From Halorussus gelatinilyticus (GTDB lineage: Archaea; Halobacteriota; Halobacteria; Halobacteriales; Haladaptataceae): DNA of 64,000 nt. A program made the position numbers and the translations under genes. This document shows, piece by piece, positions 10,479 to 29,219 of this stretch; positions within the stretch are counted from its first letter, which is position 1, and every line of letters starts with the position of its first letter. Below the pieces are notes generated by a model that saw only the letters and a list, made by a program, of their open reading frames with translations, did not search any database and was not told where the DNA came from. Where the stretch lies: assembly GCF_023238445.1 (NCBI RefSeq), contig NZ_CP096658.1, positions 1,798,001-1,862,000 on the forward strand, in the 5' to 3' direction.

Positions 10479-13178
10479 CTACGACGCCACGAGGAAGTCG
10501 CCGCTGACGGCCTCGCGGGCGTCCCGGACGTAGGCGTAGGTCGAGCGAACGAGGTAGACGACCAGTCCCACGAACCCGAGGACGTAGGCCGCGGTCGAAC
10601 CGTACAGCGAGTAGCGCGCTATCCGATAGCGGTTCGCCATCCGCTGGCGCTCGTCCGCGACGCTCTGGGCCTCCTCGGTCGCGCCCGCCTTCCGGAAGGC
10701 GGTCGCGGCCTCGCCGTAGGCCGCCTGCACCGCCGAGGTCTTCCGTCCGAAGGCGTCCCACTTCGCCGGGTTGAGCATGAGCGGTTGGCCGGCGACGACC
10801 GTCAGCATCTCGTCGCGCATCTCGTCGTGGAGCTGACGGGCCGACTGGCGCTTCTCGTTGCCCTTCTTGACCGTCTCGGTGTAGGCGTCGAACGCCGCGG
10901 CCGACTCGGTGCGGAGGCGTTCGGCGCGCTGGTCGTTGCCCTGCAGCGAGGCGAGTTGCGCGAGTTGGCGCTTGATGTGGGCGCGCTCTATCATCGAGAC
11001 GTTGCCCGAGTCGAGCTGTGACCGGTAGTAGTCGGTCTGCTGGGAGACGAGCTTTTGCACCGTCTCGTCGGCGGCGGCCCGCGACTTGTCCGCCGAGTTG
11101 CGCAGCTGCGAGTCGTCGAGTTTCGAGACGTAGTTGTCCAGCAGGTTGTACGTCGCGGCGGCCCGGACCACCTCGTCTTGGGCGGCCTCGTTGCCGTCGC
11201 TAGCTCTGGTCTCGCGGGCGTTCTGGACCGACTCGATGAACAGCAGGGTCGCTCGCCCGGCCGCGATGGAAGTCGAGAGGTCCGTCCGGGACACCTCGCC
11301 GCCGTTCCGGAGTTCGCTTTCGAGCGTGTCGAGGGTCGTCACCATCCCCGAGGCCGTCTCGCTCTGCCAGTCGCCCGACCCGGTGTACTGATTCAGCGGG
11401 TCGCGTATCTGGTCGAACGAGTAGGGCTTGGGCGTCGCGGTGACGGTGACCGTTTGGTTCTGGACGTTATCGCCCTCGACGCGGTAGGTCCACGTGTACT
11501 TGCGGTACAGCTCCGCCGACGTGTCGAACCGGAGCGCCACGACGAACGGCGCGGCGTCGCCCGCGGTCAGCGTCGCTGGCGGGCGCTCGACCACGGTCAG
11601 CCACTTGTCCGGCCCGGAGACCTTCGTCACCGACAGGCCGCTCACGTCGCGGTACTCCAACGCCTCGGCCACGTCGGTGCTCTTCGTGAGGTTCTTCGTG
11701 ACGATGACGTCGCCGTAGGTCAGCGAGGTCTTCTCGACCGATAGCTCGACGCCGTGACTAACCGAAATCTGGCGGCTTATCTGCTTGCTCCCGGCCTCCT
11801 CGGCGTTCACGCTGACGCTGAGTCCGTAGTCGCCTTGGGGTGTCGAGGGGTCGGCTTCGACACGGACTGCCACCTTGCCGTTCGACTGGCCGGCGATGGT
11901 GTCGGGCGCGTCCACGACGCTCGCGGTGACGCGACTGCTGTCGGTCCCCGCGCTCGCACCTTGGATGTTCATTTTCTTGTCACCCGTGTTGGGCACCATC
12001 ACCTCGATGGTCTTGGTGTGGGAATCGACCTCGGATCTGGGCTGGTCGAACACCATCGAGGTGTTGCTGGTCGAGAGGCTCCCGAACCGGGCCGGATAGA
12101 TGACTCGCCCGGTGAACTCTATCTTCTTGCCGACGCTGTTCTCGCCGTCCGGCTTGAGGAACGCGGTCCACCGGAGGTCGCTGTGTTGGGGCGCGTTGTC
12201 CTGCACCGACACTGACACCTCCGCGGTGGCCGACCCGTCGGGCGAGGTGTCGAGGTAGCGCAGGCCGCTGAATCCGATGGAGCCGTACTGGTCGGAGTTC
12301 GTGACTTTCGAAGTGACGCCGCTGATGCCGGTGTAACCGCCCTCCTCGGAGACGGTGAACTCGACGGTCTTGTCGCTCCCGACGAGGACGTCGCCGACAT
12401 CGACCGTGCCGTCGTCTCCGGCGTCGAGGACCGCGGGCTTCGCCACCGTGACCGACACGTCGAAGCTCTGGCTGTTCCCGAGGTTGTCGGTCACCGTCGC
12501 CCGGAACTGGTAGTTGCCCTTCGAGACCGACTCGTCGGCCTCGATTTGGAGCTTCATCGACTTGGTGCCGCCGGCGTCGATTCTGTCCGGCAGGTTCTGG
12601 GCGTTCACCGTGAACCCGTCGGGCACGTTGCTGAAGGTGACCTCCGAGGGCCGCATCTGGCCTTCGCCGGTGTTCGGGATGTCCACCTTCTTAGTCGCGC
12701 TCCCGGTGTTCTTCGATTCGAACACCACGGTCGCGTCCTGGTCGTCGATAAATCCGAACTGCGGTTCGGTCACCCTGACCGTGAGTCGTTTTCGTTCCGC
12801 GCCGCCGTCGGCGGTGTACGCCGTGTGGTAGCCGGCGTTGGCGCTCGCGGGGACGGTCGCCTCGTAGCGCAGTTCGTACTCGTGGCCCGCCCGGACCTGC
12901 CACGACGTCCCGCTCCCGCTCGCGGTGCCGTCGAGGTCGGTCCACTCTTGGAAGGCGAACTCGACGTTCCCGTCGGCCATCTGGCCGTTCACCGTGACCG
13001 TCCGGTTCGAGGTCGCCTCGAAGGTCGTCGTCAGCGTCCGGGTTATCTGGTCGCCGGAACTCGCCGCGGCCGACGCCCGACTCACCGTCACGCTCGACTG
13101 GGCCGTCGCCGCCCCGGCGAAGCCGTGGAGCGCGACAAACAGCGCGAGACAGACCGTCACCGCACTGCGTCTATCCAT
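10479..13178 (-). CDS. Exported membrane-anchored Ig-repeat protein with helical juxtamembrane domain
   Basis: 899 residues from the ATG at 13178. Residues 1-27 are a Sec-type signal peptide (RRSAVTVCLALFVALHGF... ATAQ). The next about 560 residues are a series of beta-sandwich repeats with the 'GDVxVGSxKTVEFTV' and 'xVPNTGxxxM' patterns of ASH/HYDIN/CARDB-like Ig domains. Residues about 590-850 are helical, including charged heptads, and a single membrane helix (STAAYVLGFVGLVVYLV) lies near the C-terminus, leaving a short cytoplasmic tail. It is the last gene of the minus cluster; its start overlaps the upstream stop by 8 bp. Topology implies a large extracellular adhesin or scaffold linked through the membrane to the cytoplasmic tubulin-like proteins. 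The function is unknown. Confidence 0.85.
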   Translation of the reverse strand: MDRRSAVTVCLALFVALHGFAGAATAQSSVTVSRASAAASSGDQITRTLTTTFEATSNRTVTVNGQMADGNVEFAFQEWTDLDGTASGSGTSWQVRAGHEYELRYEATVPASANAGYHTAYTADGGAERKRLTVRVTEPQFGFIDDQDATVVFESKNTGSATKKVDIPNTGEGQMRPSEVTFSNVPDGFTVNAQNLPDRIDAGGTKSMKLQIEADESVSKGNYQFRATVTDNLGNSQSFDVSVTVAKPAVLDAGDDGTVDVGDVLVGSDKTVEFTVSEEGGYTGISGVTSKVTNSDQYGSIGFSGLRYLDTSPDGSATAEVSVSVQDNAPQHSDLRWTAFLKPDGENSVGKKIEFTGRVIYPARFGSLSTSNTSMVFDQPRSEVDSHTKTIEVMVPNTGDKKMNIQGASAGTDSSRVTASVVDAPDTIAGQSNGKVAVRVEADPSTPQGDYGLSVSVNAEEAGSKQISRQISVSHGVELSVEKTSLTYGDVIVTKNLTKSTDVAEALEYRDVSGLSVTKVSGPDKWLTVVERPPATLTAGDAAPFVVALRFDTSAELYRKYTWTYRVEGDNVQNQTVTVTATPKPYSFDQIRDPLNQYTGSGDWQSETASGMVTTLDTLESELRNGGEVSRTDLSTSIAAGRATLLFIESVQNARETRASDGNEAAQDEVVRAAATYNLLDNYVSKLDDSQLRNSADKSRAAADETVQKLVSQQTDYYRSQLDSGNVSMIERAHIKRQLAQLASLQGNDQRAERLRTESAAAFDAYTETVKKGNEKRQSARQLHDEMRDEMLTVVAGQPLMLNPAKWDAFGRKTSAVQAAYGEAATAFRKAGATEEAQSVADERQRMANRYRIARYSLYGSTAAYVLGFVGLVVYLVRSTYAYVRDAREAVSGDFLVAS

Positions 13179-14178
13179 GACGAACCCCCTCGGTCGCCAC
13201 GATGTCACCGATTTGGGCGTCGTCCACGTCGCGCGCCCACGCCGTGAGGCGGTGGGCGAATAGACCCGCGACCAGCGCCACCGCGGCCGCGAATCCGAGC
13301 GCGAGCATCGCGCTGGCGAGCGCCAGCGACGCGACAGCCGACTGGGTGCGCTCGCGCATCTCGGAGATTCGCTCGGCGCGGTCGGACAGTCCGTGTTCGG
13401 CCGTCACGTCCGCGGCGGTCACGAGTCGGTCGCTGGCCGCCCGCGCGGACGCGTACCGGTCGAACACCGACAGCGTGTGGGTCGTGAGCGCGCCGACGGC
13501 CGAGTCGCACGACTCGCGACAGGAGTCGAGGAACTCGCCCGCGGCCGCCACCGACTCGTTGAGCGTCTCCACGTCGGTCTGGTAGGTCGCCTGGAGTCGC
13601 TCGCGCTGGACGACCAGATTCGAGTACTGCTGGACCGCGCCGCCGCGCTTGTACGCGGTGGCCGCGCTCTTCATCAGGTCGAGTCTGCTCCGCGTGTCGT
13701 TGGTCGCCAGCGCCGCCTGGTGGAGCGCTTCGCCCTGATTCTGGTAGAACCGGTCGAGTGCGAGGGTGGTCAGCGCCGCGTACTGGCTCCCGCCGGCCGC
13801 CCGGAGGTCGGCCACGAGCGCCTCGGTCCGATTGGCGCGTTCGAGGCTCTCTATCCGGGACCCGCTCTGACTCAGGTTGTAGGCCTCGTCGAACGTCACC
13901 AACACCTCGTACACCAACCGCATCCGCTCGGCCTTCGCGTCGGTGAACGTCCCGACCTGCACGGTCGAGACGGCCTGTGCCCTGACTACTTCGAACTCGC
14001 TGTACTCCTGAAACGCCGGGTGCCCTTCGAGTCCGCGGAACGCGTCGAGGAACTCGTCGGCCGTCTCCGGCGACGACTCCTCCGTCTGGGTCTGGGTCGC
14101 GGCCGCGGGAGCGACCAGCGACCAGCAGATAACCGCGATGGCGAACGCGCATCGGGCGCGTTTGTGTGTCTCCGTCAC
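13171..14178 (-). CDS. Exported helical membrane-anchored protein
   Basis: 335 residues from the GTG at 14178, two bases after the upstream stop. An N-terminal signal peptide (residues about 8-29, ending APAAATQ) is followed by a helical ectodomain of about 250 residues with amphipathic heptads and a Cys pair (CRESC) near residue 220. A single membrane helix near residues 285-315 and a 20-residue cytoplasmic tail complete it. The architecture (signal peptide, helical ectodomain, C-terminal anchor) matches the last domain of the next gene, to which it is translationally coupled by an 8-bp overlap. I do not recognise a family. A longer in-frame reading extends upstream inside the preceding gene but has shadow-like composition. 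Confidence 0.8.
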   Translation of the reverse strand: MTETHKRARCAFAIAVICWSLVAPAAATQTQTEESSPETADEFLDAFRGLEGHPAFQEYSEFEVVRAQAVSTVQVGTFTDAKAERMRLVYEVLVTFDEAYNLSQSGSRIESLERANRTEALVADLRAAGGSQYAALTTLALDRFYQNQGEALHQAALATNDTRSRLDLMKSAATAYKRGGAVQQYSNLVVQRERLQATYQTDVETLNESVAAAGEFLDSCRESCDSAVGALTTHTLSVFDRYASARAASDRLVTAADVTAEHGLSDRAERISEMRERTQSAVASLALASAMLALGFAAAVALVAGLFAHRLTAWARDVDDAQIGDIVATEGVRHG

Positions 14179-14180
14179 GT

Positions 14181-16988
<2,808 letters not shown>

Positions 16989-16989
16989 G

Positions 16990-18198
16990 CTACCCCTCGT
17001 TGATTTCCATGTACTCCGTCAGGTTGTCCTCGATGCGCCGGAGGTCGTCGGCCGAGAGCCGAGCGTTCCCGAGCGACCGGCCCGACTGGAGGCTCTGCTT
17101 GTACTCCTCGAACTCGTCCCACGAGTGGTCGAGGAGGGGGTCCAAGTCGAACCCGCCGAGCAACAGCAACACGTCCACCTCGTTGCTCCGGTCCTGCTTC
17201 GGCGTGAGGCTGGTCATGCCTGAGGCCCCGAGCAACCCGTGCTTGCGCTTCCACTCGTTGAAGGCGTTCTGCACGTCGGGTTCCGTGATGTCGCCGTTCT
17301 CTATCATGTGTTCGGGCGCTCGCACCACGGCGTAGGTGACGCGCGAGGTGCCCACGTCCATCGGGACGAAGGCGTTTTCGGCGGCCTTGTCGAACATGTA
17401 CTCCATCTCGAAGAGGTCGCCGTTCAGTTCGGTCGCCACCGCCGGGGTGAAGTGGTACGCCCCGATTTGGGAGGGGACCGTCACGTAGTCCTGAATGTCG
17501 ATGACGCCCCGCGTCTCCCGGCCCGCGCCGATCATAAGGTCGATGGCCGAGATGATCTGGTCGTTGACCTGACCGTAGTCGGTGCCGGTGGTCTCGTCGT
17601 CGCTCAGATGGGAGTTGGCGACCAGCAACACCATGTCGGCGTTCTGGCTCCCGTCGGACGACCGCAGGAGCCGCGAGAGACCGCAGACCGCGTTGAACTG
17701 GCGTTGGGGGGCCTCGTAGTAGTAGGGCCAGACCGCCAGCGCGGCGTGGATGGTGCTGTCCATCCACTGCTTGTGCTGGCTGGTGTCGAGACCGCTCCTG
17801 AACTGGTCGATGACGTACGGTATCGACCCGTTGCCGGTCCCGCCGCCCAGCGTCGCGGCGTGGAGGAACGCGTCGGTGTGGCCGCTCAGGTCGCTGATGC
17901 TGGCGACGATGCGGTCCAAGTCCTCGCGCGCGGCCTCCTTGCCGGTCACGAAGAAGTTGCCCGCGCCCTGCTGGGACCCGAACTCCAGCGCGTGGCGCGC
18001 CCACGGGTCGTCGTCGATTCTGTCCTCGATTCGGGTGATGGTGTTGCGGATGTCCGCCCGGTTCGTGTTCATCACGAGGATGCGGTCGTCGATGCCGGGG
18101 TTGTCCGACCGGGTGAAAAACTGCGAAGCGATACGCCCACCACCCTCGCCGGAAGCGATGACCATCCACTGCGTGTACGTGTTCTGCTTGCTTGACAT
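16990..18198 (-). CDS. Tubulin/FtsZ-superfamily GTPase-like protein A
   Basis: 402 residues with the Rossmann-type N-terminal domain of tubulin/FtsZ: T1-like SGEGGGR (16-22), the T4 signature GGGTGNG (118-124), a T6-like VANSHL (193-198), and a T7-like segment VIDIQDYV with D234 and D237 in the places of the two catalytic acids of FtsZ's NxDFAD. The T7 asparagine is missing. Length matches the superfamily core, with no FtsZ-type C-terminal peptide. It is too divergent for FtsZ1/FtsZ2 or CetZ by its motifs and resembles more the 'Tubulin_2/FtsZl' type outgroups. I infer GTP-dependent polymerisation near the membrane. It is one base from the following membrane-protein gene and one base from the preceding gene's stop. 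An ATG at codon 12 is an alternative start. Confidence 0.85.
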   Translation of the reverse strand: MSSKQNTYTQWMVIASGEGGGRIASQFFTRSDNPGIDDRILVMNTNRADIRNTITRIEDRIDDDPWARHALEFGSQQGAGNFFVTGKEAAREDLDRIVASISDLSGHTDAFLHAATLGGGTGNGSIPYVIDQFRSGLDTSQHKQWMDSTIHAALAVWPYYYEAPQRQFNAVCGLSRLLRSSDGSQNADMVLLVANSHLSDDETTGTDYGQVNDQIISAIDLMIGAGRETRGVIDIQDYVTVPSQIGAYHFTPAVATELNGDLFEMEYMFDKAAENAFVPMDVGTSRVTYAVVRAPEHMIENGDITEPDVQNAFNEWKRKHGLLGASGMTSLTPKQDRSNEVDVLLLLGGFDLDPLLDHSWDEFEEYKQSLQSGRSLGNARLSADDLRRIEDNLTEYMEINEG

Positions 18199-18199
18199 G

Positions 18200-20305
18200 T
18201 TAGGCTCGTTTGGTTACTCCGTCTGCGGTGAGTTCGACCGATTCGCCGAACTCGGCGTCTGCGATGGCCCCACGAATCACGTCGTCGGGAAGCGGTGCCG
18301 ACAGGAACCGGGTCCTGAAGTCGTCGAACGTCATCGTCTCGTTCTCGCCGAGGTTGTGCTGGACGACCATCTCGACCTCCTGGTCGAGTTGCTCGCCGTC
18401 GTAGGCGACCACGCCGTCGGCGTCGGTCCGCGTCACCGAGAGGTCGGCCTCTTCGGCCCAGAGCGCCAGCAGACACGGCACGTAGTCGTCGGTGATGGGG
18501 TAGTCCATCGACGCCGCCAGATACCCCTCGTCGTCGTACTGGTCGGTCAGGTCGTCTTCGAGGTCGGGCAGGTACTCGCGGATGTCGGCCTCGACGCCCT
18601 CGCAGACCTGCTCGCGAAGGCCGACCTCGTTCATCGTGAGTTCGACCCGCGCGTCGTCCTCGACCGTGACCGTCTCCTCGGGGGTCCGGTAGTCGTCGGG
18701 GTCCGGGACCGCCCGGACCTCGTACTCGCCGAAGGGGACCTCCTCGAAGGTGACCTCCTCGGCGAGGTGGGTCCGGCGGTGTTCGCTGTCGTCGTGGGCC
18801 GTCCCCTCGATTTCGATGGCGACGCCGCGCTTGGGTCCGCCCTCCTCGAACTGGGCGAACACCGTCACGTCGTGGGTCTCGCCGTCGCCCGCCGCGACCA
18901 GCGCCGGTCCCGAGGGGTCGTAGCTCACTTCGGCGTGCTTGCGGGCGTAGAGCTCCATGAACGCGCCCGCGTCCTTGACCGGGAGGTCGTCGGCCGCGAC
19001 CTCGGCGCTGGCCCGAATCTCCTGTTCGATGACCGACTCGATGTCGTCGTACGACCGCGCGACCGACGCCTTCTCCGAGAGGTCGTCGAGCGCGTTCGAG
19101 AGGTCGCCGACCGCGCCTGTCCACGTCAGTCGGAACTGGTCGAGGTCGTCGGTCCGTCGGAGTTGGGCCTCGTACTCCTCGTCGCCGGCCGAGGGCCACT
19201 CGTAGTAGTCCGCGGGCACGTCGGCCCGCCCGAGCGCCGACAGGTCGTCTTCGAGGTCGCCCTCCATCTCAGCGACCATCTCGACGCTGACCTCCCGGAG
19301 GTCGTCGCGGTGCTCCCGGAGGTCGCTCACGTCGAGCGCCGAGTCGAGCGACGCCATCGCGGCGTCTATCTCCTCGACTCGCTCGACGTGGCGCGCGCTG
19401 ACGTACTCCTCGACCACCGACGATTGGACGGCCTCCAGCAGGTTCTCGACCGACTCGCGGTCGGCCTCGAACCGCCCGGAGAGGTCGCCCTCCAGCGCGG
19501 CTTGGGCGTCCAGCACCGTGTCCACCGCGCCGTCGTGGTCGTCGGCCTCCGCCCGCGACCGGGCGTCTTCGAGGAGGTCACGAACGCGGGCGTCGTCCAC
19601 CCTTCCGTCAACGTCCGCGAGCAGGGTCTCGACTTCCTCGCTCGCTCGCTCCACGACGTCGGTCGCGTCGGCGCGGTGGTCGGCCAGCACGTCTTCGAGT
19701 TCGTCCACTTCGTGGCCGGCGTCGTCAACTGCCTGCTGGCCGCGCCACGACCGAACGTCCGCGAGGTCGGCGGTTTCCAGTCGGCCGAGCGTGTCGCGGA
19801 GTCGCCGGAGTTCGCTCCGGACGAACTCCTCGAAGGAGTCGGTCAGGGTCGAATCGAGGTCGCGCACGTCCGACTGGATTCGCTCCAAGTCCTGGATGTC
19901 GGCCGACCCGAACCGCTTGGTCGAGTAGGTTCCCGCCGCGGTGTCGAAGCTGACGCCTTGTTCTTCGAGGTCGTCGGCGACGCGCTCCACGTCGGTCTCC
20001 ACGTCGTCGGCGTTCCAGTCGGGGTACTCGCCGTGGAGCGCCTCGAACTCCGCGTGGAAGTCCCGGAGGTCGGTCGCCGTCTCGGTCGCCTGCTGTTTGG
20101 TGTAGTTCGACTCGCTGGTGCCCTGTCGGGAGACGACGCTCCGGACGTAGACGCCGACGCCGACGACCAGCAGCGTCGGAATTCCGATGGCGATGAAGCC
20201 GACGCCGAGTTGGGAACTGGTGAACAGGAACAGTCCGAGTCCGACCGCCGCCGCGACGATGACGATGCCGCCGATGCCGAGTGCCGATTTGGTTTCTCGT
20301 TTCAT
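18200..20305 (-). CDS. Membrane-anchored coiled-coil protein with Ig-like and winged-helix-like C-terminal domains
   Basis: A 701-residue protein. Two membrane helices lie at about residues 8-29 and 33-54. They are followed by an acidic coiled-coil region of about 350 residues (rich in DLxDLxxxLxRLE heptads), a beta-sandwich at about 465-550 (HDVTVFAQFEEGGPKRGV then VPFGEYEVRAVPDPDDY, the same carboxypeptidase-regulatory style seen in the downstream membrane protein), and a C-terminal helical/winged-helix-like domain. No export signal precedes the coiled coil, so the bulk is likely cytoplasmic. The ATG overlaps the upstream stop (ATGA). The architecture suggests a tether holding a cytoplasmic polymer at the membrane; that is inference. 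Confidence 0.8.
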   Translation of the reverse strand: MKRETKSALGIGGIVIVAAAVGLGLFLFTSSQLGVGFIAIGIPTLLVVGVGVYVRSVVSRQGTSESNYTKQQATETATDLRDFHAEFEALHGEYPDWNADDVETDVERVADDLEEQGVSFDTAAGTYSTKRFGSADIQDLERIQSDVRDLDSTLTDSFEEFVRSELRRLRDTLGRLETADLADVRSWRGQQAVDDAGHEVDELEDVLADHRADATDVVERASEEVETLLADVDGRVDDARVRDLLEDARSRAEADDHDGAVDTVLDAQAALEGDLSGRFEADRESVENLLEAVQSSVVEEYVSARHVERVEEIDAAMASLDSALDVSDLREHRDDLREVSVEMVAEMEGDLEDDLSALGRADVPADYYEWPSAGDEEYEAQLRRTDDLDQFRLTWTGAVGDLSNALDDLSEKASVARSYDDIESVIEQEIRASAEVAADDLPVKDAGAFMELYARKHAEVSYDPSGPALVAAGDGETHDVTVFAQFEEGGPKRGVAIEIEGTAHDDSEHRRTHLAEEVTFEEVPFGEYEVRAVPDPDDYRTPEETVTVEDDARVELTMNEVGLREQVCEGVEADIREYLPDLEDDLTDQYDDEGYLAASMDYPITDDYVPCLLALWAEEADLSVTRTDADGVVAYDGEQLDQEVEMVVQHNLGENETMTFDDFRTRFLSAPLPDDVIRGAIADAEFGESVELTADGVTKRA

Positions 20306-21372
20306 AGGAGTCCTCCGAGTGTCGAGAGGCCGCCGAGTGCGACCAGTCCGCCGACCGTCAGCGCGAGCGTGAGGACGGCGAGTCCGACCGCCCGCACCAA
20401 CACGCCCAGGCCGTAGCTCACGTCAGAGTTGACCTGTCGGTCGTACCGGATGTCTTCGAGTCTGCTCGCGGTCAGCTTCCAACCGGGGAGCGCGCCCGCG
20501 ACGAGACCGAGCAGAGCCGCCCCGCCGAGGTTGAGCAGCACCGTCGTCTTCGCGTCGCTCGCGGCGGTTTCGAGCGCCGAGTGGTATCGCGTCATCGCTC
20601 GCTCCGCCTCGGCGTCGGTGCGGCGTTCGCGGCGCTGTGCGGCGTCGAGCGCCGACAGCGCGGCCGTCCGCCCGTCGCTCCGCCACGCCGTCTCGTAGAG
20701 GCGCGTTTCGAGGGCCTCGCCTCGCGTCGCCACGGCGCTCCGACTCTCGTTGACCGCGGTGACGACCGTCTCGTTGAGCGCCGCGGAGTCTCCGCCGCCG
20801 GATTCGAGCGCGGTGGCCGACTCGTTCAGTCGCGCCGTCGCGTTTTCGAGGTTCGAGAGCGACGCGAGATAGCGCTGTTCGGCCTTCCGATACGCGTCGG
20901 CGGCCGACGCGTTCTCGAAGGTTATCGACCCGTTCGCCAACTTCGACTCGACGGTCGGGGACTGCTGGACCACGACCGAGACGCCCGCCAAGTTCTGCTT
21001 GCCGGAGACGAGTCCCGGCAGGTCGACCCGCGACTTCTCGCCGGTCACGCGCACGGTCACGGTCGCGTCGGTCCGATTCAGGACCTCCAGTCCCTCGGGG
21101 TTCTCGAGCTTCCACTCCGGTCCGCGGGTGGGCTTCACCTCGCCTCCCTTGCAGAGGGCGACCTGAAACGTCGTTCCGGGGTAGAGCGACGTCTCGCCCG
21201 TGAGAACCTGCTGGGACGTCGGGTTCGACGCGCCCGGTAGGACGCCGATCAGCACCTCGCCGCCGGAGGTCTGAGCGCACGCCGTGCCCGCGTCGGGGTA
21301 GGTCGCCGCGCTCGCGGGGACCGCTCCGACGACCAGCGAAACCACGAACAGTCCGACCAGAAGCCGCCTCAT
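20302..21372 (-). CDS. Exported protein with helical ectodomain and two C-terminal membrane helices
   Basis: A 356-residue protein with signal peptide 1-22 (LLVGLFVVSLVVGAVPASAA), a beta-rich N-terminal domain containing two Cys (CAQTSGG and LCKGG) that could form a disulphide outside the cell, a helical stalk with many N-x-S/T sequons (residues about 165-260), and two membrane helices (about 270-292 and 325-350) separated by a short conserved-looking cytoplasmic loop (TASRLEDIRYDRQ). It overlaps both neighbours by 4 bp (ATGA at each end). No family is recognised. Confidence 0.8.
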   Translation of the reverse strand: MRRLLVGLFVVSLVVGAVPASAATYPDAGTACAQTSGGEVLIGVLPGASNPTSQQVLTGETSLYPGTTFQVALCKGGEVKPTRGPEWKLENPEGLEVLNRTDATVTVRVTGEKSRVDLPGLVSGKQNLAGVSVVVQQSPTVESKLANGSITFENASAADAYRKAEQRYLASLSNLENATARLNESATALESGGGDSAALNETVVTAVNESRSAVATRGEALETRLYETAWRSDGRTAALSALDAAQRRERRTDAEAERAMTRYHSALETAASDAKTTVLLNLGGAALLGLVAGALPGWKLTASRLEDIRYDRQVNSDVSYGLGVLVRAVGLAVLTLALTVGGLVALGGLSTLGGLL

Positions 21373-21635
21373 CCGCCGTCACCTCGGTTCAGATACGCGC
21401 CGACGCCGCCGCCGACCAGTCCGACCGCGAGTCCCAGTCCGAGCCCCGCGATTCGGGGGACCCACGGGTCGTCGGCGGCCGCCAGCGCGGCCGTCGTGTC
21501 GTCGGTCTGGGCGTCTATCTGGTCGGCCAGCGTGGACGCCGCTACCGGGTCGGCGACGCTCGCGGCGGTTCCGGCCGACGCCGCGACCACCGCCGAAACG
21601 GCCATAAAGATTATGATTATTACACTTCGCCTCAT
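21369..21635 (-). CDS. Small exported/membrane protein
   Basis: An 88-residue protein. It has an N-terminal signal-like helix (residues 4-24, SVIIIIFMAVSAVVAASAG), a 30-residue Ala/Asp-rich loop and a C-terminal helix (62-82, IAGLGLGLAVGLVGGGVGAYL) ending in NRGDGG. Both ends overlap neighbours by the ATGA pattern, supporting this start and its reality despite the size. It is probably a small subunit of the same membrane complex. Confidence 0.75.
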   Translation of the reverse strand: MRRSVIIIIFMAVSAVVAASAGTAASVADPVAASTLADQIDAQTDDTTAALAAADDPWVPRIAGLGLGLAVGLVGGGVGAYLNRGDGG

Positions 21636-22837
21636 GCTACTTGCCGCGCCTCGTTCTGCCGCTCGTACTCGTCGGCCCGTTCCTCTATCTCCACGATTCG
21701 GTCCACGTTCTCGCGCCGGTAGGTGTACAGCGAGGTGAACGACGCCAGATTCCGCCGCGTGAGCGCGACGCCCATGTTCACCTCGGGACACTTCGATTCG
21801 AGGAACCGACGCATCGTCGAGGTCTCGATGCCCTTGCTCCCGCCCGAGACGTACTCGACGGGGGCGCGGACGAGACCGATGGCCTTCTCGGCGTCGTCGG
21901 GCGACGCCTCGGCGAGGGTCCGCTTGCCCGCCGCGAGTCGGGGGAGCGCGCTGCTGTCCACCGACTGACTGCCGACGAACGGCAGCAGGTAACCTAGCAG
22001 GGATTTGGTCAGCGTGACCGACCGACCGAGGGTCGCGTACCCCGGCCGGGCGTTCGTCCCTCGCGTGTCGAACGACAGCGAGGTCACCACGTCCTGTAGG
22101 TCCACGACCGGCGGGTCCACGTCGTCGTACTCGCCGGGGTCGATTCGCTCCAAGGTCGAACCCGAGATGAGGTCGACGAGCCCCGACGCCACGTACTCGT
22201 TGTACTCCGAGAAGCGCCCCTCGGCGGCGTCCTCGTAGGCGAGTCGCTGGTTGTCCACGAGGATGATGCCGTCCACAGTCTCTTCGAGGCGGTCGAGACC
22301 GTAGACGGTGTTCCACGCCTGTCGGCCCGCGCTGATCTGTTCGTCGTCCTCTGCGACCGGTCCCTTCGTGTTGGGCAACACCGCGACGCCGATGACCTGC
22401 GCCACGCCGTCGGTGTACTCCTTGATGGCCTCCGCGACGTGCGGGGCGATACCACAGCCGGTACCGCCGCCGAGCCCCAGGCAGACGAACGCGAACGGGA
22501 TGTCTCCCGGCGTCCCGTCGGGTTCGTCGAAGTGCGCCGATAGCTTGTCTATCAACTCTTCGCGGTGGCTCTCCATCACTTGGTCGGCCTGCACGGGGTT
22601 CCGACCGAAGCCACCGGTCACTTGCTCTTCGAAACCCGGCGTGCCTCGCTCGACGAGCCCGTGCCGCTCGGCGATGCCGTACTGGTGTGCCTCGCTCACG
22701 TTCGAAAGGTTCCGAAGGTCCCGGATGGTCGAATTGAACACCAAGGGAGCCGCGGGAGTGGAAACGCGTCTGTGCCCGAACACGTCGTCCACGATGGCGC
22801 TACCCGCTTGCCCGGTGCCAGCAAATATATATACCAT
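21632..22837 (-). CDS. Tubulin/FtsZ-superfamily GTPase-like protein B
   Basis: A 401-residue protein. The sequence opens at once with strand S1 and a T1 loop (FAGTGQAGSAI, residues 5-15). It continues with the T4 signature LGLGGGTGCG (120-129), a T6-like VDNQRL (194-199, compare tubulin IDNEAL) and a T7-like VVDLQDVV with D246 and D249 replacing the FtsZ catalytic pair. It is the most canonical of the three tubulin-like proteins. I chose the ATG at 22837 because residues begin with the nucleotide-binding strand and an AT-rich promoter lies 35-45 bp upstream; a longer reading from 22873 would run through that promoter. It is the first gene of an eight-gene unit. GTP binding is well supported by motifs; polymerisation is inferred. 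Confidence 0.88.
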   Translation of the reverse strand: MVYIFAGTGQAGSAIVDDVFGHRRVSTPAAPLVFNSTIRDLRNLSNVSEAHQYGIAERHGLVERGTPGFEEQVTGGFGRNPVQADQVMESHREELIDKLSAHFDEPDGTPGDIPFAFVCLGLGGGTGCGIAPHVAEAIKEYTDGVAQVIGVAVLPNTKGPVAEDDEQISAGRQAWNTVYGLDRLEETVDGIILVDNQRLAYEDAAEGRFSEYNEYVASGLVDLISGSTLERIDPGEYDDVDPPVVDLQDVVTSLSFDTRGTNARPGYATLGRSVTLTKSLLGYLLPFVGSQSVDSSALPRLAAGKRTLAEASPDDAEKAIGLVRAPVEYVSGGSKGIETSTMRRFLESKCPEVNMGVALTRRNLASFTSLYTYRRENVDRIVEIEERADEYERQNEARQVA

Positions 22838-22872
22838 GTCGGTACGTCGGTCACTTATCCACAAAGAGAACA

Positions 22873-22880
22873 CATATACC
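22873..22880 (-). promoter_or_regulatory. Promoter of the eight-gene tubulin-like/membrane operon
   Basis: The 183-bp gap before protein B holds the only AT-rich stretch in this part of the cluster. On the minus strand GGTATATG (22873-22880) lies about 40 bases before the ATG at 22837, the right distance for a TATA box with a short-leader transcript. All genes downstream to 10479 are separated by -8 to +2 bp, so this is likely the promoter for the whole unit. Confidence 0.55.
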
Positions 22881-23020
22881 TAACGGAAATAGAAATTCAA
22901 GGATACGCGAATTCGGACCTGATTGGTAACTTTTGCACGATTACGTTTCCGTTCTCGAAGCCCGACGCCGAGCGCGACCCAAGGTCCCTCGACCGCGAAG
23001 TCGCTGCGGGCGGCCGAGCG

Positions 23021-24481
23021 TCACCCTCGAAGTCGCCGGAGCATCACGCTGTACTCGTTTCGCTCGTAGAGCTTCTCCACGTAGTCGAGCGTCTCGTCGG
23101 CCGCCGCGGCCAGTCCGGTCGCTCGGGCGTCGTCGCCGACGGCCGTCGCCTCCTCGGCGTCTTCGCGGAGCGCGTCAACCAGCGAGAGGAAGTGCAGCGG
23201 GATGCTGTGGTTGTGGTCCCTGCGACCGTCCACGTAGCGGTCCTCGAACTCCTCGCGCCGGTCGGCCACCGCCGCGATGCGGTCGTCGGGACTCGTCCCC
23301 GACTCGCCCGCGCTCGCTCCGCCGCTGGCGTCGCCGAACGCCTCGTCGCCGAACATCTCGCTCGCGCCCGCGTCGCTCCCCTCGTCGAGTCGGGCGAGGA
23401 GCGTCCGGTCGTAGAACCGGAGTTCGTTGCGGACCGCGTAGGGGATGACCGCGTTCGAGTCGTCGGCCCGGTCCACCATCCCGCGGAGTTCGCCGACGCG
23501 CTCGCCGAGCGCGTCGGCGACCGGTCCCGACCGGCCGTCGAGTCGGTCCGCCACGCTATCGGCCAACTCGGCGACCGACTCGCGGTCCAACTCCGCCACG
23601 ATGCTCTGGGTCGTGGAGGCGGCGTCCAACTGCTCGACCGCGGTGTCGAGCGAGGCCCGGAGGTCGCCGATGCCCGGCGACGCGAGTCGGTCGAGCAGGC
23701 GCTTTGCGACCGCGCTCTCGGGGCGCTGTTCGCGGCGCACGTCGGCCGCGACCGACTGCACGCCGTCGTCGGCGTCGCCGGCGTCGCTACCGGCGTCGGC
23801 GCTCTCGCCCCTCTCCTCGGACTCCGCGACCGTCTCGACCAATCGCTGGACGCCCGCGGTGAGTTCGCCGTCCGTCCGGTCGAGGTGGTTCCCGGCCCGG
23901 CGGGCGTCGCCCGGCGCGACCGGTCCGTCGTCGGGTAGTTCGCCGACGGCGCGTTCGAGCGCTCGCTGGCGGTCGAGTGCGGTCACCGCGCGTTCCAGCG
24001 CGGCGTCGAGTTCGTCGGGGTCCGCGCGGTCGGGCGCGGCCGCGGCGTCGAGCAGTTTGCGGGCCGCGGGCGAGGAGGGCGTCCGGTCGCGCCGGAGTCG
24101 GGCCGCCGCGTCGGCGACCGCGCCGTCCGCGCCCGCGTCGGCGTCGCCGGTTCGCGGCGGGCGAATCGAGAGACGGTCACCTTCGACCGCCCGAGAGAGC
24201 GCTTCGGCCTTCTCGACGCCGGTGGCGTCCGCGGCGGGCGCGTCCCGGAGGTGGCGGTCGAGGTCGGCGTCGCCCGCGAGGTCGTCGATGGCGTCTTCGA
24301 GGTCGTCGAGTCGCCGCGCTATCGCGTCGGGGTCCTCGCGTGCGTCGAGGCGGCGGGCGACCTCCGCGAGGTCGTCCTCGTCGTCGGAACCGCGGCCGAA
24401 GAATCCGGCTACCCCGACCGCGGCCAGCGAACAGACGAGTCCGGCCGCCGCGAGGCCGCCGAGGGGAACGACCGTCTGCAT
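23021..24481 (-). CDS. Membrane-anchored helical protein
   Basis: 486 residues from the ATG at 24481, one base after the stop of tubulin-like protein C. A single N-terminal membrane helix (residues 3-27) is followed by a highly acidic Ala/Asp/Arg-rich helical domain with several DAAxxLxR-type repeats, and a distinct C-terminal helical bundle (about 360-486) that includes YAVRNELRFYDRTLL and a DHNHSIPLHFL motif. The C-terminal part ends DYVEKLYERNEYSVMLRRL, reminiscent of TPR-like helices. The bulk is predicted cytoplasmic. It is the last gene of the 28140-23021 unit. No family is recognised. Confidence 0.8.
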   Translation of the reverse strand: MQTVVPLGGLAAAGLVCSLAAVGVAGFFGRGSDDEDDLAEVARRLDAREDPDAIARRLDDLEDAIDDLAGDADLDRHLRDAPAADATGVEKAEALSRAVEGDRLSIRPPRTGDADAGADGAVADAAARLRRDRTPSSPAARKLLDAAAAPDRADPDELDAALERAVTALDRQRALERAVGELPDDGPVAPGDARRAGNHLDRTDGELTAGVQRLVETVAESEERGESADAGSDAGDADDGVQSVAADVRREQRPESAVAKRLLDRLASPGIGDLRASLDTAVEQLDAASTTQSIVAELDRESVAELADSVADRLDGRSGPVADALGERVGELRGMVDRADDSNAVIPYAVRNELRFYDRTLLARLDEGSDAGASEMFGDEAFGDASGGASAGESGTSPDDRIAAVADRREEFEDRYVDGRRDHNHSIPLHFLSLVDALREDAEEATAVGDDARATGLAAAADETLDYVEKLYERNEYSVMLRRLRG

Positions 24482-24482
24482 G

Positions 24483-26096
24483 TCAGGCCATGTTCTCCCG
24501 GCCGAGACACGAGAACAGCGGGTCCACGAGGTGCCAGATGTCCCGCAGACTCTCGGCCTGTCGGCTGTTGCCCTCTTCTTTGAGTTGCTTGGCGTGGTCG
24601 TACATCGCTTCGAGCGACGGCATCCGGGGGTTCCAGAGCGCGCCCCAGAGGTAGACGTCGTCCAGATACGGGATGACCATCTGGCTGACGTGGATGTCGA
24701 TGGACTCGGCACCGCTCACGTCGTCCACGTTCAGGAACTCCTCGCCGCCGATAATCTCCCGGAGCGTGTTGTCGTTGACGTACGGCGAGACGTGTTCCAT
24801 CTTCTCCTCGGGCCCGTAGACGAGGAACGTGCCGCCCCACGCGGTCGTCGGGTCGAAGTCCGAGAGTTTGTTGTGGAACAGCGCGTTGCGGACCAGAATC
24901 TCCAGCCCCGACTTGTCGAGTCTAGCGTCGCGCGACCGCCCGAGGACCGGCGCGAGGACGACCGCCGGGTTGTACTCGCGGTCGATGTCCAGCGGATACT
25001 TGTCCTCGACCGGCCGGAAGCTGTCGGAGACGTCGAACACCTCGCCCTGAATCGACATCGTGGCGTCCTGATCCACGATTTGGGGCGTCGAGGACATGGT
25101 GAACGCCTCCAGGTACGCGACCAGCGGCTTGTTGAGTTCGGTGTACTGGGGCGGGTTGTACTTCTCGATGCCGTCGATGCGGGGCTTCACGTCGCCCTGC
25201 ACGTCCTGCAGTCGCTCGTTGTTGAACGGGATGACGGCGTCGGCGGTCTGGGAGATGCGCGCCAGTCCGACCGCGCCGTTGGTCCGCGCCCGCCCGCCGA
25301 ACTTGTCCTCGGCGGAGGGGATGACCACCGAACTCAGCAGGGCCTTGTCGATGACGTAATCGTCCGAGAGGACCTCCTCGCGGACTCGCTCGGCCAGCGC
25401 CGGGGTCGAACCGCACCCGGTCCCCTTGGTGACGCTGTGGACGAACATGAGCGCCTGCGCGTCCCGAATGTCTTGGGGGTCCATGTCCCACCTGTCGCGG
25501 AAGGGGTTGCCGTCCTCGAAGTCGGCCTGAACGACCTTTTCGCCGAGGTCCCAGCGCCGACCCATCCCGGAGTAGTCCTGAACGCCGAATCCGATGATGG
25601 CGTTGGGCAACAGGTCGTTACGGCTGTACTGTTTGAGTTCCTGAGCGTAGTAGGTCTGCTCCAACTCGGCGATGTTGGTGTTGAGCATCCCGTACCCCGC
25701 GAGGCCGCCGCGCCACACCATCGCCCGGTCCTCGTTGTTCTTCTCCAAGGTGTGCTTCCGGAGCAGGATGGCGTCCATGATGTTGTTGCCCGCGCCGCCG
25801 ACGCCGATCATGTACCACTTCTTCCCGTAGGCCGAGTCGAGCAGGTCGTCGTCCACCGCGGGACCGTCGTCCATCGAGGTCCCGATCTGATCGACCTGCC
25901 CGGAGTCGTCCGGTTCGGAGTCGTCCTCGTCGCCGAGGTCCGTCGGTTCGCCGTCCTCGAACAGTCGGTCGTATCGGTCGCTGTACACCGCCCGGACCGA
26001 CGTCTCGTCCGCGGCGTGGGACCCGAGGAGGTGTTCGTCGAGGTTGTCTTCGTCCCATTCCGTCTCCGTCTGAAAGCAGATTCTGCACTTTGTCAT
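24483..26096 (-). CDS. Zinc-finger/tubulin-FtsZ-superfamily fusion, GTPase-like protein C
   Basis: A 537-residue protein. An N-terminal CCHH zinc-finger-like module (C4, C7, H22, H27) and an acidic linker (40-90) precede a tubulin-like core. T1 GVGGAGNN at 98-105 is nearly identical to FtsZ. The T4 loop is the variant TKGTGCGS (223-230), T6-like is FNNERL (291-296), and a candidate T7 is VFDVSDSF with D355 and D358. A long insert between T1 and T4 (residues 115-205) is unlike FtsZ. The C-terminal 150 residues are extra. The finger suggests a protein- or nucleic-acid-binding adaptor at the end of a filament-forming GTPase. The gene lies 127 bp after a four-helix membrane protein and one base before another membrane-anchored protein. 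Confidence 0.85.
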   Translation of the reverse strand: MTKCRICFQTETEWDEDNLDEHLLGSHAADETSVRAVYSDRYDRLFEDGEPTDLGDEDDSEPDDSGQVDQIGTSMDDGPAVDDDLLDSAYGKKWYMIGVGGAGNNIMDAILLRKHTLEKNNEDRAMVWRGGLAGYGMLNTNIAELEQTYYAQELKQYSRNDLLPNAIIGFGVQDYSGMGRRWDLGEKVVQADFEDGNPFRDRWDMDPQDIRDAQALMFVHSVTKGTGCGSTPALAERVREEVLSDDYVIDKALLSSVVIPSAEDKFGGRARTNGAVGLARISQTADAVIPFNNERLQDVQGDVKPRIDGIEKYNPPQYTELNKPLVAYLEAFTMSSTPQIVDQDATMSIQGEVFDVSDSFRPVEDKYPLDIDREYNPAVVLAPVLGRSRDARLDKSGLEILVRNALFHNKLSDFDPTTAWGGTFLVYGPEEKMEHVSPYVNDNTLREIIGGEEFLNVDDVSGAESIDIHVSQMVIPYLDDVYLWGALWNPRMPSLEAMYDHAKQLKEEGNSRQAESLRDIWHLVDPLFSCLGRENMA

Positions 26097-26223
26097 TGTT
26101 GTCGCTCGCGTCTGTCTCCCGCTCGCTGTCGTTCTCGTCCCGGCTGTCGTCTTCCCGCCGCCGGTCGCTTTCCTACCGTCGCTCGTCCGCCCGCTATCGG
26201 TCGTTCGCTCGCCGTCGTGGCGC

Positions 26224-28140
26224 TCACGCGTACTGCTCCTGATACCGCTCGTGAAGCGCGTCTATCGCGCGGTCGGTCGAGGTCCCGTCCTCCGGAACCA
26301 GCTCCACGAACCCCGGCGGTGCGCCCTCCTGTACGTCGAACTCCGCCACGACGTCCGTCTGGCGCGTGCCGAACTGCTCCAACTGGCTCAACACCGCGGG
26401 CGTGGCGACGCTCTCGGGGAGGTCGTCGGTCTGGAGTTCCGCCCGGTCGCCGTCGGTCTCGCGCCCGGCGTTCTTCAGCTCTCGGAGGACGAACAGCACC
26501 GAGTCGATTATCTCCTCGGGACGCGCTCGCTCGCCTCGCCGGTCGCGGGCGTCGCGGCCACTCGCTTCTCGGCCGTCCGCTTCCCCGTCGCTCCGGCTCT
26601 CGGTCACTCCGACCGACCGGGAACCGACCGCGGCGGGGGCGGCGTCGCTCTCGGCGGTCGCCGGTCCGTCGGGATAGGCGAGTCGGACCGCGCCGCCTTC
26701 GACCCGGACGTCCACGTCGTAGTCGCGCTCGAACGCCGGTCGGAGTTCGGCCAGCAGCGTCTCGTCCACGCCGCTCGGGAGCGAGACGCGCTCGCCGCCG
26801 TGGTCGATGGTCCCGACAACGCTCCAGACGAACTCCACGAGCGTCACGAGGTCGCTCGCGTCGGCCGCGGCCGACTCGGCCCGGCGCTCGGCGTCGTCGA
26901 ACCGACAGTCGTGGAGGTCGTCCTTCCCGGCGTCGAGTTCCGACCGGACCGTCCGAACGCTCGGAAGGTCGTCGTGACGCCCCTCGATTGCCAGCTCCGC
27001 GAGTCGGTCGGCGACGCGTCCGTCGAACCGCTCTATCTTGGCCTCGACGGTTTCGAGGTCCGACTCGACCGGCTCGGCGGCCTCGGCGAACGCGGCCTCG
27101 CGTTCGCCGACGTGGGCCTCGATTCGCTCGACGTGGTCGTCTACTTGCTCGACGGCCGCCCCGACGGTCTGGAGGTCGTCGCCGGCCTCCACGCGGTCGA
27201 GAAGCACGTCGCTCACGCGGTCGATGTGGACCGAGGCGTCGAAGGCCGGCACGTCAATCTCGCGGAAACGACCGGGCAGGTTCACGAGTTCGTAGGCTCG
27301 GTCGTACCGCGACCAGCACTGGACGGTGCCGTACGTGGTCTTCACGCCCGACGCGACCCGGTCGCGGAGGTCGTCGCCGATTCGCTCGATTTCGGCCTCC
27401 GGGTCGAGCGAATCGACCCGACTCCGGAGCGAGGCCGCCTCGACTCGGAGCTCCTCGGCCGACTGCCGCTCGGCGGCGTCGAGGTCTGCCGCGATGTCGT
27501 CGCACTCGCGTCGGAACTCCCGGCGATCCTCCTCCGCGCGCTCGACGCCGGTCGGGGCCACCTCCGAGAGCGCGTCGAGGTCGCCGATTCGCCGCCGATA
27601 GGTCTCCTCGAACGTCTCGCGCTTCTCGTCCAACTCCGAGGCCACTTCGGCGAGTTCGGCCGACTTCTCCTCGACGACTTTCTCGTCCCAATCGTGACGG
27701 AGCGCGGCCGCGATGGCCGCGCCGGCGGCCAGCACCGGCACCGCGAAGAAGCCGACGACCTGCACCGTCGGCACGTCCATCCCGAACATCGGCGCGTAGA
27801 CGCCGAAGAAGAGCGCGAAGAAGAGGACCGACACGAGTCCCGCGGCCGCGAACGTCACGTCGCGGTTGCGCCGCCCGAACTGGGCCACGCCCTGCGCGAC
27901 CCACGCGCCCGCGATGAGGATGAACAGTCCGAACACGAGCGTCGGACTCTTCCACATCAAGACGGCGGCGGCGTCGAACACCGCAATCGACCGAATCGCG
28001 CCTTGAATGCCGCCGAGTCCCGCCGACCCGAGCGTCGTCTCCAACATCGCCAACGTCGTCTGAACGAACGTCGCAAGTATCGGTACCCCTGCGAGCCCCC
28101 ACGCCGCGAGCGTCGTTTTCGTTTCACGACCTGTAGCCAT
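26224..28140 (-). CDS. Four-helix membrane protein with long cytoplasmic coiled coil
   Basis: 638 residues from the ATG at 28140 (a GTG one codon earlier is possible). Four membrane helices occupy residues about 11-33, 65-88, 94-119 and 125-146. A long coiled-coil/helical region (about 150-430, ELAEVASELDEKRETFEE at its start) follows, then a small mixed domain (SLPSGVDETLLAELRPAFERDYDVDVRV), an Arg/Asp/Glu low-complexity linker and a C-terminal helical domain. It heads the minus-strand block; 127 bp without genes or AT-rich signals separate it from tubulin-like protein C, so the two are probably one transcript. It is a likely membrane anchor of the system. The family is unknown. Confidence 0.8.
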   Translation of the reverse strand: MATGRETKTTLAAWGLAGVPILATFVQTTLAMLETTLGSAGLGGIQGAIRSIAVFDAAAVLMWKSPTLVFGLFILIAGAWVAQGVAQFGRRNRDVTFAAAGLVSVLFFALFFGVYAPMFGMDVPTVQVVGFFAVPVLAAGAAIAAALRHDWDEKVVEEKSAELAEVASELDEKRETFEETYRRRIGDLDALSEVAPTGVERAEEDRREFRRECDDIAADLDAAERQSAEELRVEAASLRSRVDSLDPEAEIERIGDDLRDRVASGVKTTYGTVQCWSRYDRAYELVNLPGRFREIDVPAFDASVHIDRVSDVLLDRVEAGDDLQTVGAAVEQVDDHVERIEAHVGEREAAFAEAAEPVESDLETVEAKIERFDGRVADRLAELAIEGRHDDLPSVRTVRSELDAGKDDLHDCRFDDAERRAESAAADASDLVTLVEFVWSVVGTIDHGGERVSLPSGVDETLLAELRPAFERDYDVDVRVEGGAVRLAYPDGPATAESDAAPAAVGSRSVGVTESRSDGEADGREASGRDARDRRGERARPEEIIDSVLFVLRELKNAGRETDGDRAELQTDDLPESVATPAVLSQLEQFGTRQTDVVAEFDVQEGAPPGFVELVPEDGTSTDRAIDALHERYQEQYA

Positions 28141-28499: not shown

Positions 28500-28594
28500 T
28501 CGCAGAAAGCGCCCGAGGCGGGATTTGAACCCGCGTCACAACCGTGACAGGGTTGTATGATGGGCCACTACACCACCCGGGCTTCCGAGTGCAT
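28500..28594. repeat. 95-bp direct repeat, copy 1, containing tRNA-Asp
   Basis: This copy is identical base for base to 29125-29219 and includes the whole tRNA-Asp(GTC) gene plus 10-12 bp on each side. Sequence outside the repeat diverges at once, so the duplication boundaries are sharp. Confidence 0.85.
28510..28582 (-). tRNA. tRNA-Asp(GTC), copy 1
   Basis: A 73-nt cloverleaf on the minus strand. The acceptor GCCCGGG pairs with CTCGGGC (one G-U), the anticodon stem CAACC/GGTTG encloses the loop CTGTCAC with anticodon GTC, and the T-arm GCGGGTTCAAATCCCGC is intact. The discriminator is G, as expected for archaeal tRNA-Asp, and CCA is not encoded. A TTAA-containing TATA-like element (GCCTTAATAC on the minus strand) lies about 35 bp upstream, so this copy has its own promoter. 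Confidence 0.97.
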
Positions 28595-28716: not shown

Positions 28717-28962
28717 CTACGGGAGGACTCTATCTAATTCGTACTCTTTAGCCCAGTTAATCGATGGATGGTCTATTTCCGAATCGAACCGGAGTTCCAT
28801 CTTCTGTTCGTTCGCTTCGTCTATCTCTACCCGATAGAGTGTCTCGCTCGCCGGATACCGTACGACGAACGCGTCTACTTCGCCGTAATAGGTGCGCTCG
28901 CGGTACTCTCCGTTGATGACTCTCGCTTCCGTCTCGTCACCTCGGTCCTTCGTATTGCCCAT
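28717..28962 (-). pseudogene. Internally deleted PD-(D/E)XK-like endonuclease remnant
   Basis: An 81-residue reading frame. Its first 15 residues (KDRGDETEARVI) look like the N-terminal helix, and its last 50 (VDAFVVRYPASETLYRVEI, then MELRF and INWAKEYELD) look like the C-terminal part, of the small group-I-intron-type PD-(D/E)XK endonuclease family common in haloarchaeal elements. The central hairpin carrying the catalytic Asp and E-x-K residues is absent, consistent with an in-frame internal deletion. It lies between the duplicated tRNA-Asp genes in AT-richer DNA. It could still make a small protein, but not an active nuclease of that family. The family match is from memory of its conserved ends. 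Confidence 0.55.
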
Positions 28963-29124: not shown

Positions 29125-29219
29125 TCGCAGAAAGCGCCCGAGGCGGGATTTGAACCCGCGTCACAACCGTGACAGGGTTGTATGATGGGCCACTACACCA
29201 CCCGGGCTTCCGAGTGCAT
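29125..29219. repeat. 95-bp direct repeat, copy 2, containing tRNA-Asp
   Basis: The second identical copy of 28500-28594. The 530 bp between the copies are AT-richer than the surroundings and carry only the decayed endonuclease-like frame. Confidence 0.85.
29135..29207 (-). tRNA. tRNA-Asp(GTC), copy 2
   Basis: Identical in all 73 nt to the first copy. A minus-strand CCTTAAGTC element at roughly 29242-29250 lies about 35-43 bp upstream, so this copy also has an archaeal TATA-like promoter of its own. The divergent rpoH promoter region lies beyond it. Confidence 0.97.

Follow-up and report, generated by a model that had tools for sequence, protein, structure and literature searches.

The predicted Halo_adaptin system of haloarchaea, which resembles the endosomal sorting complexes required for transport (ESCRT), was proposed in silico with Haloquadratum walsbyi as its representative (Makarova et al. 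2024, PMC11188069/PMC10936438). As given in the accessible text of that proposal, its parts are a Vps4-like ATPase with a VAT-like N-terminal domain rather than an MIT domain, a PspA-like protein, two winged-helix proteins, adaptin-like proteins combining a propeller with immunoglobulin-like (Ig) domains, two more Ig proteins, one membrane protein and one CetZ-like protein, and its suggested roles are vesicle formation and protein sorting. CetZ-like paralogues in quasi-tandem, named Halo.Tub, were mentioned as one scarce group in an analysis with 5-kb flanks (Santana-Molina et al. 2023, PMC9871819, in its accessible text), while gene sets of the FtsZl1 (Tubulin_2) family were proposed to act in membrane remodelling (Makarova and Koonin 2010, PMC2875224). 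Here we describe a sixteen-gene cassette (2399–28481) in a 64,000-nt stretch of a Halorussus genome, which is a single 3.67-Mb contig; this stretch is referred to as the window, and all coordinates are positions in it. The cassette encodes three CetZ-like GTPases (tub1, tub2 and tub3), eight membrane or exported partners (A, C, E, F, G, I, J and K) and a five-gene module with an AAA+ ATPase (R1–R5), which are gained, lost and moved together.

Six other Halorussus species lack the whole cassette in a single piece; in them, sequence matching window positions 1 to ~2398 is followed within ~0.3–1 kb by sequence matching 28482 onward, with the tRNA-Asp and RNA polymerase genes. As these six species show a clean empty site between the crcB genes and the tRNA-Asp/rpo locus, the ~26-kb stretch, in which no other convincing gene was identified besides the sixteen, is considered one presence/absence cassette. 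Among 391 haloarchaeal genomes surveyed at the class level (counts not corrected for genome relatedness), tub1 was detected in 40 (~10% of species), which belong to 17 of the 86 genera, the E-values leaving a clean gap, and the 11-gene order was conserved at differing chromosomal sites. The neighbourhood survey across Halobacteria that the earlier note on this DNA had proposed as a check thus found the block in other haloarchaea with its gene order kept. Within the family, the block was present in 6 of the 18 Halorussus genomes and in none of the 10 genomes of its two other genera. Named carriers include Halorubrum, Halobaculum, Halopenitus, Natronomonas, Halobiforma, Natrinema, Haloarchaeobius, Halovenus and Halobellus. 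All sixteen genes are present in the same order on the chromosome of Haloquadratum walsbyi C23, and all sixteen are also carried by plasmid PHS2 of Halobacterium salinarum R1 and by a Natrinema plasmid, while tub1 was found on three Halobaculum plasmids. In H. salinarum R1, tub1, tub2, tub3, G and R4 are OE_RS12040, OE_RS12060, OE_RS12070, OE_RS12045 and OE_RS12015, respectively.

R1 was detected in 38 of the 391 genomes, which is exactly the tub1 set minus two genomes (G068 and G074), and full-length tub3 in the same 38, with divergent tub3 copies in two further genomes (G057 and G107). In three genomes of one genus (G044, G087 and G124), the R genes were present but not beside the block, lying ~260 kb away in G044; thus, linkage alone does not explain the co-occurrence. 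Inheritance as a unit in ~10% of haloarchaeal species is what makes the cassette look like a real machine.

The eleven minus-strand reading frames (10479–28140) follow the order A, tub3, C, tub2, E, F, G, tub1, I, J and K from 5′ to 3′, and their junctions are overlaps of 4–8 bp or gaps of 1–2 bp, except for two gaps of 127 bp and 183 bp. Both gaps are exactly as the earlier note had given them, and so are its eleven frames and their coordinates, apart from small changes to the starts of J (14178, GTG), C (24481, ATG) and K (13178). On the other hand, its block of eleven genes, although real, is not the whole unit, which runs past 10479 as a convergent operon to ~2529. In a comparison between two close species, the ratios of nonsynonymous to synonymous substitution rates (dN/dS) were 0.058–0.50 for every gene compared, indicating purifying selection, and were lowest for tub1 (0.058) and tub2 (0.061), with 0.14 for tub3 versus 0.31–0.50 for the exported F, I, J and K. 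Since the 11-gene order recurs in many genera and all compared genes are under purifying selection, the arrangement is far beyond chance. Long plus-strand reading frames opposite the operon (e.g. 23445–27917) were judged to be shadow frames of GC-rich DNA.

The three tubulins, all on the minus strand, are tub1 (16990–18198; 402 amino acids (aa)), tub2 (21632–22837; 401 aa) and tub3 (24483–26096; 537 aa). They matched PF00091 at 4.7e-9, 1.5e-11 and 2.6e-12 with 37.2, 45.4 and 47.9 bits, respectively, all above the gathering cut-off of 33 bits, and their T1, T6 and T7 motifs are intact, so that the earlier view of three non-identical tubulin-superfamily proteins alternating with eight membrane or exported proteins holds. 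The T7 motif reads DxxD, as in FtsZ, rather than the DxxE of the CetZs compared, and it is invariant in each of the three among the haloarchaeal orthologues aligned (Asp234/Asp237 in tub1, Asp246/Asp249 in tub2 and Asp355/Asp358 in tub3). In tub3, the T4 loop reads TKGTGCG in place of GGGTGxG, and the N-terminus has a zinc-finger-like CxxC...H...H motif with Cys4, Cys7, His22 and His27 invariant.

Profile comparison related tub1–3 to one another and, along the entire length with the C-terminal domain included, to CetZ (tub1 3.5e-15, tub2 7e-19, tub3 6e-11), with a weaker match to FtsZ and hardly any to the Tubulin_2 proteins of ANME-1 archaea. All three failed the FtsZ equivalog TIGR00065 (27.6–38.1 bits versus a cut-off of 295.2). 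In the tree, tub1, tub2 and tub3 were each monophyletic with near-full support and fell outside the group of FtsZ plus CetZ (support 98/94), although the deep joins are uncertain because the branches are long. Thus, despite their full-length homology to CetZ (Duggin et al. 2015), they differ from it in lying outside the FtsZ+CetZ clade, in the T7 motif and in being placed inside an operon of envelope proteins, and they are not members of the CetZ clade. The Halorussus genome has nine tubulin-superfamily genes, the other six of which were placed with FtsZ or CetZ. A recent triplication was ruled out by the three separate deep clades, and no tub2 relative was found in IMG/VR that would point to a viral origin.

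The earlier note had named the Tubulin_2/FtsZl1 family as known background to the three proteins. They are not members of it, and their nearest full-length relative is CetZ. PF13809 gave 20.5 bits with tub2, below the cut-off of 27, and no match with tub1 or tub3. What the cassette has in common with the FtsZl1 sets is a tubulin-family GTPase with membrane-protein partners and a suggested part in remodelling membranes, together with true Tubulin_2 genes beside relatives of the system in ANME-1, G068 and G107; it differs from them in that tub1–3 are short (402, 401 and 537 aa), without the long coiled coil, and keep T6 and T7, and in that it has no von Willebrand factor A (vWA) partner, a domain for which no Pfam match was found in the 15 cassette proteins scanned (all except the short E).

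All eight non-tubulin genes of the minus strand encode products with a predicted signal peptide and/or transmembrane helix. The first gene of the operon, A (26224–28140), encodes a 638-aa protein with about three N-terminal transmembrane helices and a cytosolic helical arm; C (23021–24481; 486 aa) has one N-terminal transmembrane helix followed by such an arm, and E (21369–21635) is a small membrane protein of 88 aa with two hydrophobic segments. F (20302–21372; 356 aa) has a signal peptide, an exported domain with a weak YbbR match and two C-terminal transmembrane helices. J (13171–14178) is an exported protein of 335 aa with a single transmembrane helix near its C-terminus, whereas K (10479–13178; 899 aa) is an exported Ig-like repeat protein with a signal peptide and a C-terminal transmembrane helix, and its orthologues were found in nearly all blocks examined, ANME-1 included.

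G (18200–20305; 701 aa) has two N-terminal transmembrane helices, and it lies near tub2 or tub1 in every lineage having the core. Its AlphaFold2 (AF2) model was good outside the membrane hairpin, with a predicted local distance difference test score (pLDDT) of 86.9, and comprised a long cytosolic helical arm, an Ig-like domain and an alpha/beta C-terminus. The Ig part resembles carboxypeptidase-regulatory and Cna-B folds, fold matches returning generic Ig domains only. I (14181–16988; 935 aa) has an exported N-terminal half, a transmembrane helix at ~415 and a cytosolic half with an Ig-like domain (CarboxypepD_reg, PF13620, 4e-10) and a helical part, the latter half being homologous to the Ig and helical cytosolic module of G (283 columns, E 5e-7). 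As they have this module in common and both flank tub1, I and G are candidate tethers. N-glycosylation sequons in the exported parts exceeded the numbers expected from composition in I (10 versus 4.1), F (7 versus 2.1) and J (4 versus 1.0), with no excess in K; none was present in the cytosolic part of I, and most cytosolic parts were below expectation. This distribution fits the predicted topology.

R1–R5 form a plus-strand operon downstream of K and convergent with it. The R genes come after K in nearly all related loci, and R2 is conserved beside K in nearly all blocks. R1 (2529–3647; 372 aa), the first gene of the operon, encodes a cytosolic protein without a significant Pfam match, and a partial PDB match to glucose-6-phosphate dehydrogenase (1e-4) was judged spurious. 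R2 (3691–4743; 350 aa) is a conserved cytosolic coiled-coil protein with coiled-coil-type matches only, and R3 (4745–5389; 214 aa), directly upstream of R4, had no family match. R4 (5386–7092; 568 aa) is an AAA+ ATPase with one AAA domain and falls in the Cdc48/Vps4/CdvC clade, which is that of the ESCRT-disassembly ATPases (PF00004 1.4e-30, CDC48 1.9e-35, CdvC 4e-31); its Walker A and B motifs are invariant. Its N-terminal domain of ~205 aa gave a weak co-linear alignment to Cdc48-N (142 columns, E 0.0013, probability 19%), with weaker controls (0.06–0.97). R5 (7089–10265; 1058 aa) combines a beta-propeller (PQQ_2, 2.1e-9) with CARDB/Ig-like domains (CARDB, 8e-6), has no evident signal peptide, and is also present in blocks without R1–R4.

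Comparison with the Halo_adaptin proposal showed that both concern the same H. walsbyi C23 locus, with 16 orthologues in order, and that R1–R5 fit by position the order given in its accessible text, R4 being the single-AAA ATPase of the Vps4/Cdc48 clade and R5 the adaptin-like protein with propeller and Ig domains. By position and H. walsbyi orthology, we infer that R1 is the published winged-helix arCOG11740 and R2 the winged-helix and coiled-coil arCOG11741, and R3 may be the counterpart of the PspA/ESCRT-III-like protein. On the other hand, where the main text of the proposal has one CetZ-like protein, there are three different tubulins here together with A, C, E, F and G, and a tub2-G-J-K core also occurs in Halobellus, Methanoperedens and ANME-1 with no ESCRT-like half. 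Since the sixteen-gene H. walsbyi locus is the published system with one CetZ-like protein, R1–R5, K, J, I and tub1 correspond to that system as its accessible text gives it, and an unrecognised extension of it consists of tub2, tub3, A, C, E, F and G. Halo.Tub is probably one or more of tub1–3, as matched by its text description only, and was reported there without anchors, AAA+ ATPase or a recognised unit. The system, which the earlier note called probably undescribed at least in its three-paralogue form with these anchors, is therefore not entirely undescribed: the H. walsbyi locus and the Halo.Tub paralogues were already in print, whereas, in the accessible parts of the literature searched, no description was found of the three-tubulin form, of the anchors A, C, E, F and G or of the relatives in ANME-1 and Methanoperedens.

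Some loci carry only part of the cassette. G068 and Halobellus (G074, L136 and L138) have the part from tub2 to K (tub2, F, G, tub1, I, J and K, with E too short for reliable scoring in some), while A, tub3 and C were not found in them, nor R1 in G068 and G074; R5 is present in both of the latter. As they have tub2-to-K, with R5 in G068 and G074, and no A, tub3 and C, it appears that A-tub3-C and R1–R4 were gained or lost together and that R5 goes with the core. Among the three tubulins, tub2 has the widest distribution, extending to Methanoperedens and ANME-1. Next to an ftsZ-like gene and other housekeeping genes, a Candidatus Methanoperedens contig (39% GC) carries tub2, G, tub1, I, J and K; inserted between G and tub1 in Methanoperedens is an RRXRR-domain protein (PF14239, 3e-39; L139:15161-16021). 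In ANME-1 genomes (family f16), tub2 and G are both present in short form, most of these genomes also have J and K, and in many the genes lie beside a Tubulin_2 (FtsZl1) protein of ~900 aa. Their assignment is based on the CCx4Cx5C signature of McrA, which was present in 7 of 7 full-length copies and which we take to be diagnostic for ANME-1. Among haloarchaea, G068 and G107 likewise have Tubulin_2 proteins beside parts of the system. As genes of the FtsZl1 type adjoin this system in ANME-1, G068 and G107, two separately described kinds of tubulin-based gene set are physically joined.

Several variant loci were also observed. Many ANME-1 loci (L160–L173) have a conserved set of a 350-aa exported protein, the ~900-aa Tubulin_2 and a 148-aa protein with three transmembrane helices, beside the short G and a degenerate tub2. 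In G107 (L184), a divergent tub3, A, C and R5 lie beside a 1144-aa Tubulin_2 and a membrane protein with an Mrr-type endonuclease domain, and in G057 (L186–L187) a variant island holds a divergent tub3, A, R5 and an I-like protein with a protein kinase domain, with no tub1 or tub2. The 464-kb plasmid of Halobaculum halobium has two copies of the cluster (L099–L102), in one of which tub3 is broken into two frames and only a 144-aa piece of tub2 is called, which looks like decay.

We propose, with slightly less than even confidence, that the sixteen genes encode one envelope-spanning machine for membrane remodelling, at which budding or tubulation with cargo sorting, giving vesicles or surface protrusions, would be the likeliest output. 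The trans-envelope layout is suggested by the signal peptides and transmembrane helices, the excess of sequons that I, F and J show in their exported portions and the model of G with its membrane hairpin and long cytosolic arm, while the tie to the predicted FtsZl1 membrane-remodelling sets comes from the tub2-G-J-K core adjoining FtsZl1-type tubulins in ANME-1. In such a machine, tub1, tub2 and tub3 would polymerise against the cytosolic side of the membrane, perhaps into mixed or stacked filaments, to which A, C, G and I would bind through their cytosolic arms, while F, I, J and K would couple the assembly outward to the surface-layer (S-layer) side through their exported parts. The AAA+ ATPase R4, with R1–R3, would then dismantle either the filaments or the neck of the membrane, and cargo may be selected by the propeller/Ig protein R5. 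It is also possible, though we hold it more tentatively, that the three tubulin-family GTPases and the ESCRT/Vps4-type module act jointly on the same membrane, with an older tub2-G-J-K core, kept by methane-oxidising archaea next to an FtsZl1 tubulin, to which A-tub3-C and R1–R4 were added in haloarchaea.

Several points weigh against this proposal. No experimental work on any cassette gene was found in the literature searched, and haloarchaeal vesicle formation was reported to depend on a small GTPase (PMC10927574, in its accessible text), so that vesicles need not depend on the cassette. Binding of A, C, G and I to the tubulins is inferred only from position and domain layout, and profile scans found no family match indicating a winged-helix or ESCRT-III nature of R1–R3. 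The AF2 model of tub3 (15-row alignment) was poor, with a pLDDT of 45.6; all 50 of its 50 best PDB fold matches were FtsZ, CetZ, tubulin or TubZ, with CetZ1 at the top and low TM-scores, and a tub3 profile search of PDB returned only a BtubA-type tubulin (E 0.41). In addition, the short tub2 of ANME-1 has lost both the glycine motif of T4 and the acids of T7 in the four sequences aligned. This relative may be structural, and GTPase activity is thus not always needed.

An unlikely but serious alternative is a scaffold for cell shape or the cell surface, in which a static or slow-turning submembrane tubulin cytoskeleton would position or assemble S-layer-linked proteins with no budding or scission, the AAA+ ATPase only remodelling the filaments. 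The full-length resemblance of tub1–3 to CetZ is in keeping with it, as CetZ1 controls shape and CetZs were proposed to help assemble surface complexes (PMC9856176). Moreover, blocks without R1–R4 exist in Halobellus and G068, and thus the core works without the ESCRT-like half. The cassette is also present in Haloquadratum walsbyi, an archaeon with flat, square cells. However, just 6 of the 18 Halorussus genomes carry it, and such patchiness inside a single genus points to an accessory trait more than to basic shape, and a scaffold leaves unexplained the ESCRT-like module that is co-inherited in 38 of the 40 genomes. Transport across the envelope, energised by the AAA+ ATPase with the tubulins as gate or positioning elements, either for protein secretion or for exchange of DNA or protein between cells, is improbable. 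Exported and cytosolic parts are indeed joined through the membrane and some copies reside on large plasmids, but family scans of the cassette detected neither a channel-like component with multiple transmembrane helices nor any known gene for secretion or for a relaxase, and every plasmid record with tub1 was typed as non-mobilizable.

The probability left after the budding, scaffold and transport readings goes to other roles. An anti-virus or stress-response island would agree with the patchy accessory distribution, and the PADLOC models IetA/TRIP13 match R4. These matches, however, are generic to the AAA domain, and the other nine of the 10 cassette proteins (out of 16) covered by the scan gave no convincing match, the best being a weak JetC hit (E 0.0085) on the coiled-coil R2; as a set of 11–16 genes with exported domains is also unlike known defence systems, we consider such an island very improbable. 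Even harder to credit is a TubZ-kind system of plasmid segregation or maintenance, to which the occurrence on several haloarchaeal plasmids might point, since the cassette is chromosomal in the genome of the window and in H. walsbyi and eight envelope proteins make no sense for that role.

At its borders, the cassette adjoins two adjacent CrcB (fluoride channel) genes (1599–2397) on one side and, on the other, two tRNA-Asp genes (28509–28582 and 29134–29207) with a fragment of a PD-(D/E)XK nuclease between them (28717–28962), a doublet also present in genomes without the cassette. The cassette ends have no common repeat of at least 10 bp and no integrase was seen among the called genes, by which tRNA-directed integration of an element was ruled out. 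Elsewhere in the window, the region 52000–58000 is of low GC (down to 0.49), starts near a tRNA-Ala gene (53084–53155) and is possibly an integrated element.

Machineries of the tubulin type and of the ESCRT type are usually seen as alternative routes of shaping or cutting membranes in archaea, and here one transferable cassette encodes both, with three tubulins rather than one and a full set of membrane anchors. The in silico Halo_adaptin proposal thereby becomes a concrete system of 16 genes, whose tubulin core has an independent history reaching ANME-1 and Methanoperedens. Attention is thus drawn to the cultured Halobacterium salinarum R1, with its sixteen genes on PHS2, and to the square archaeon Haloquadratum walsbyi.

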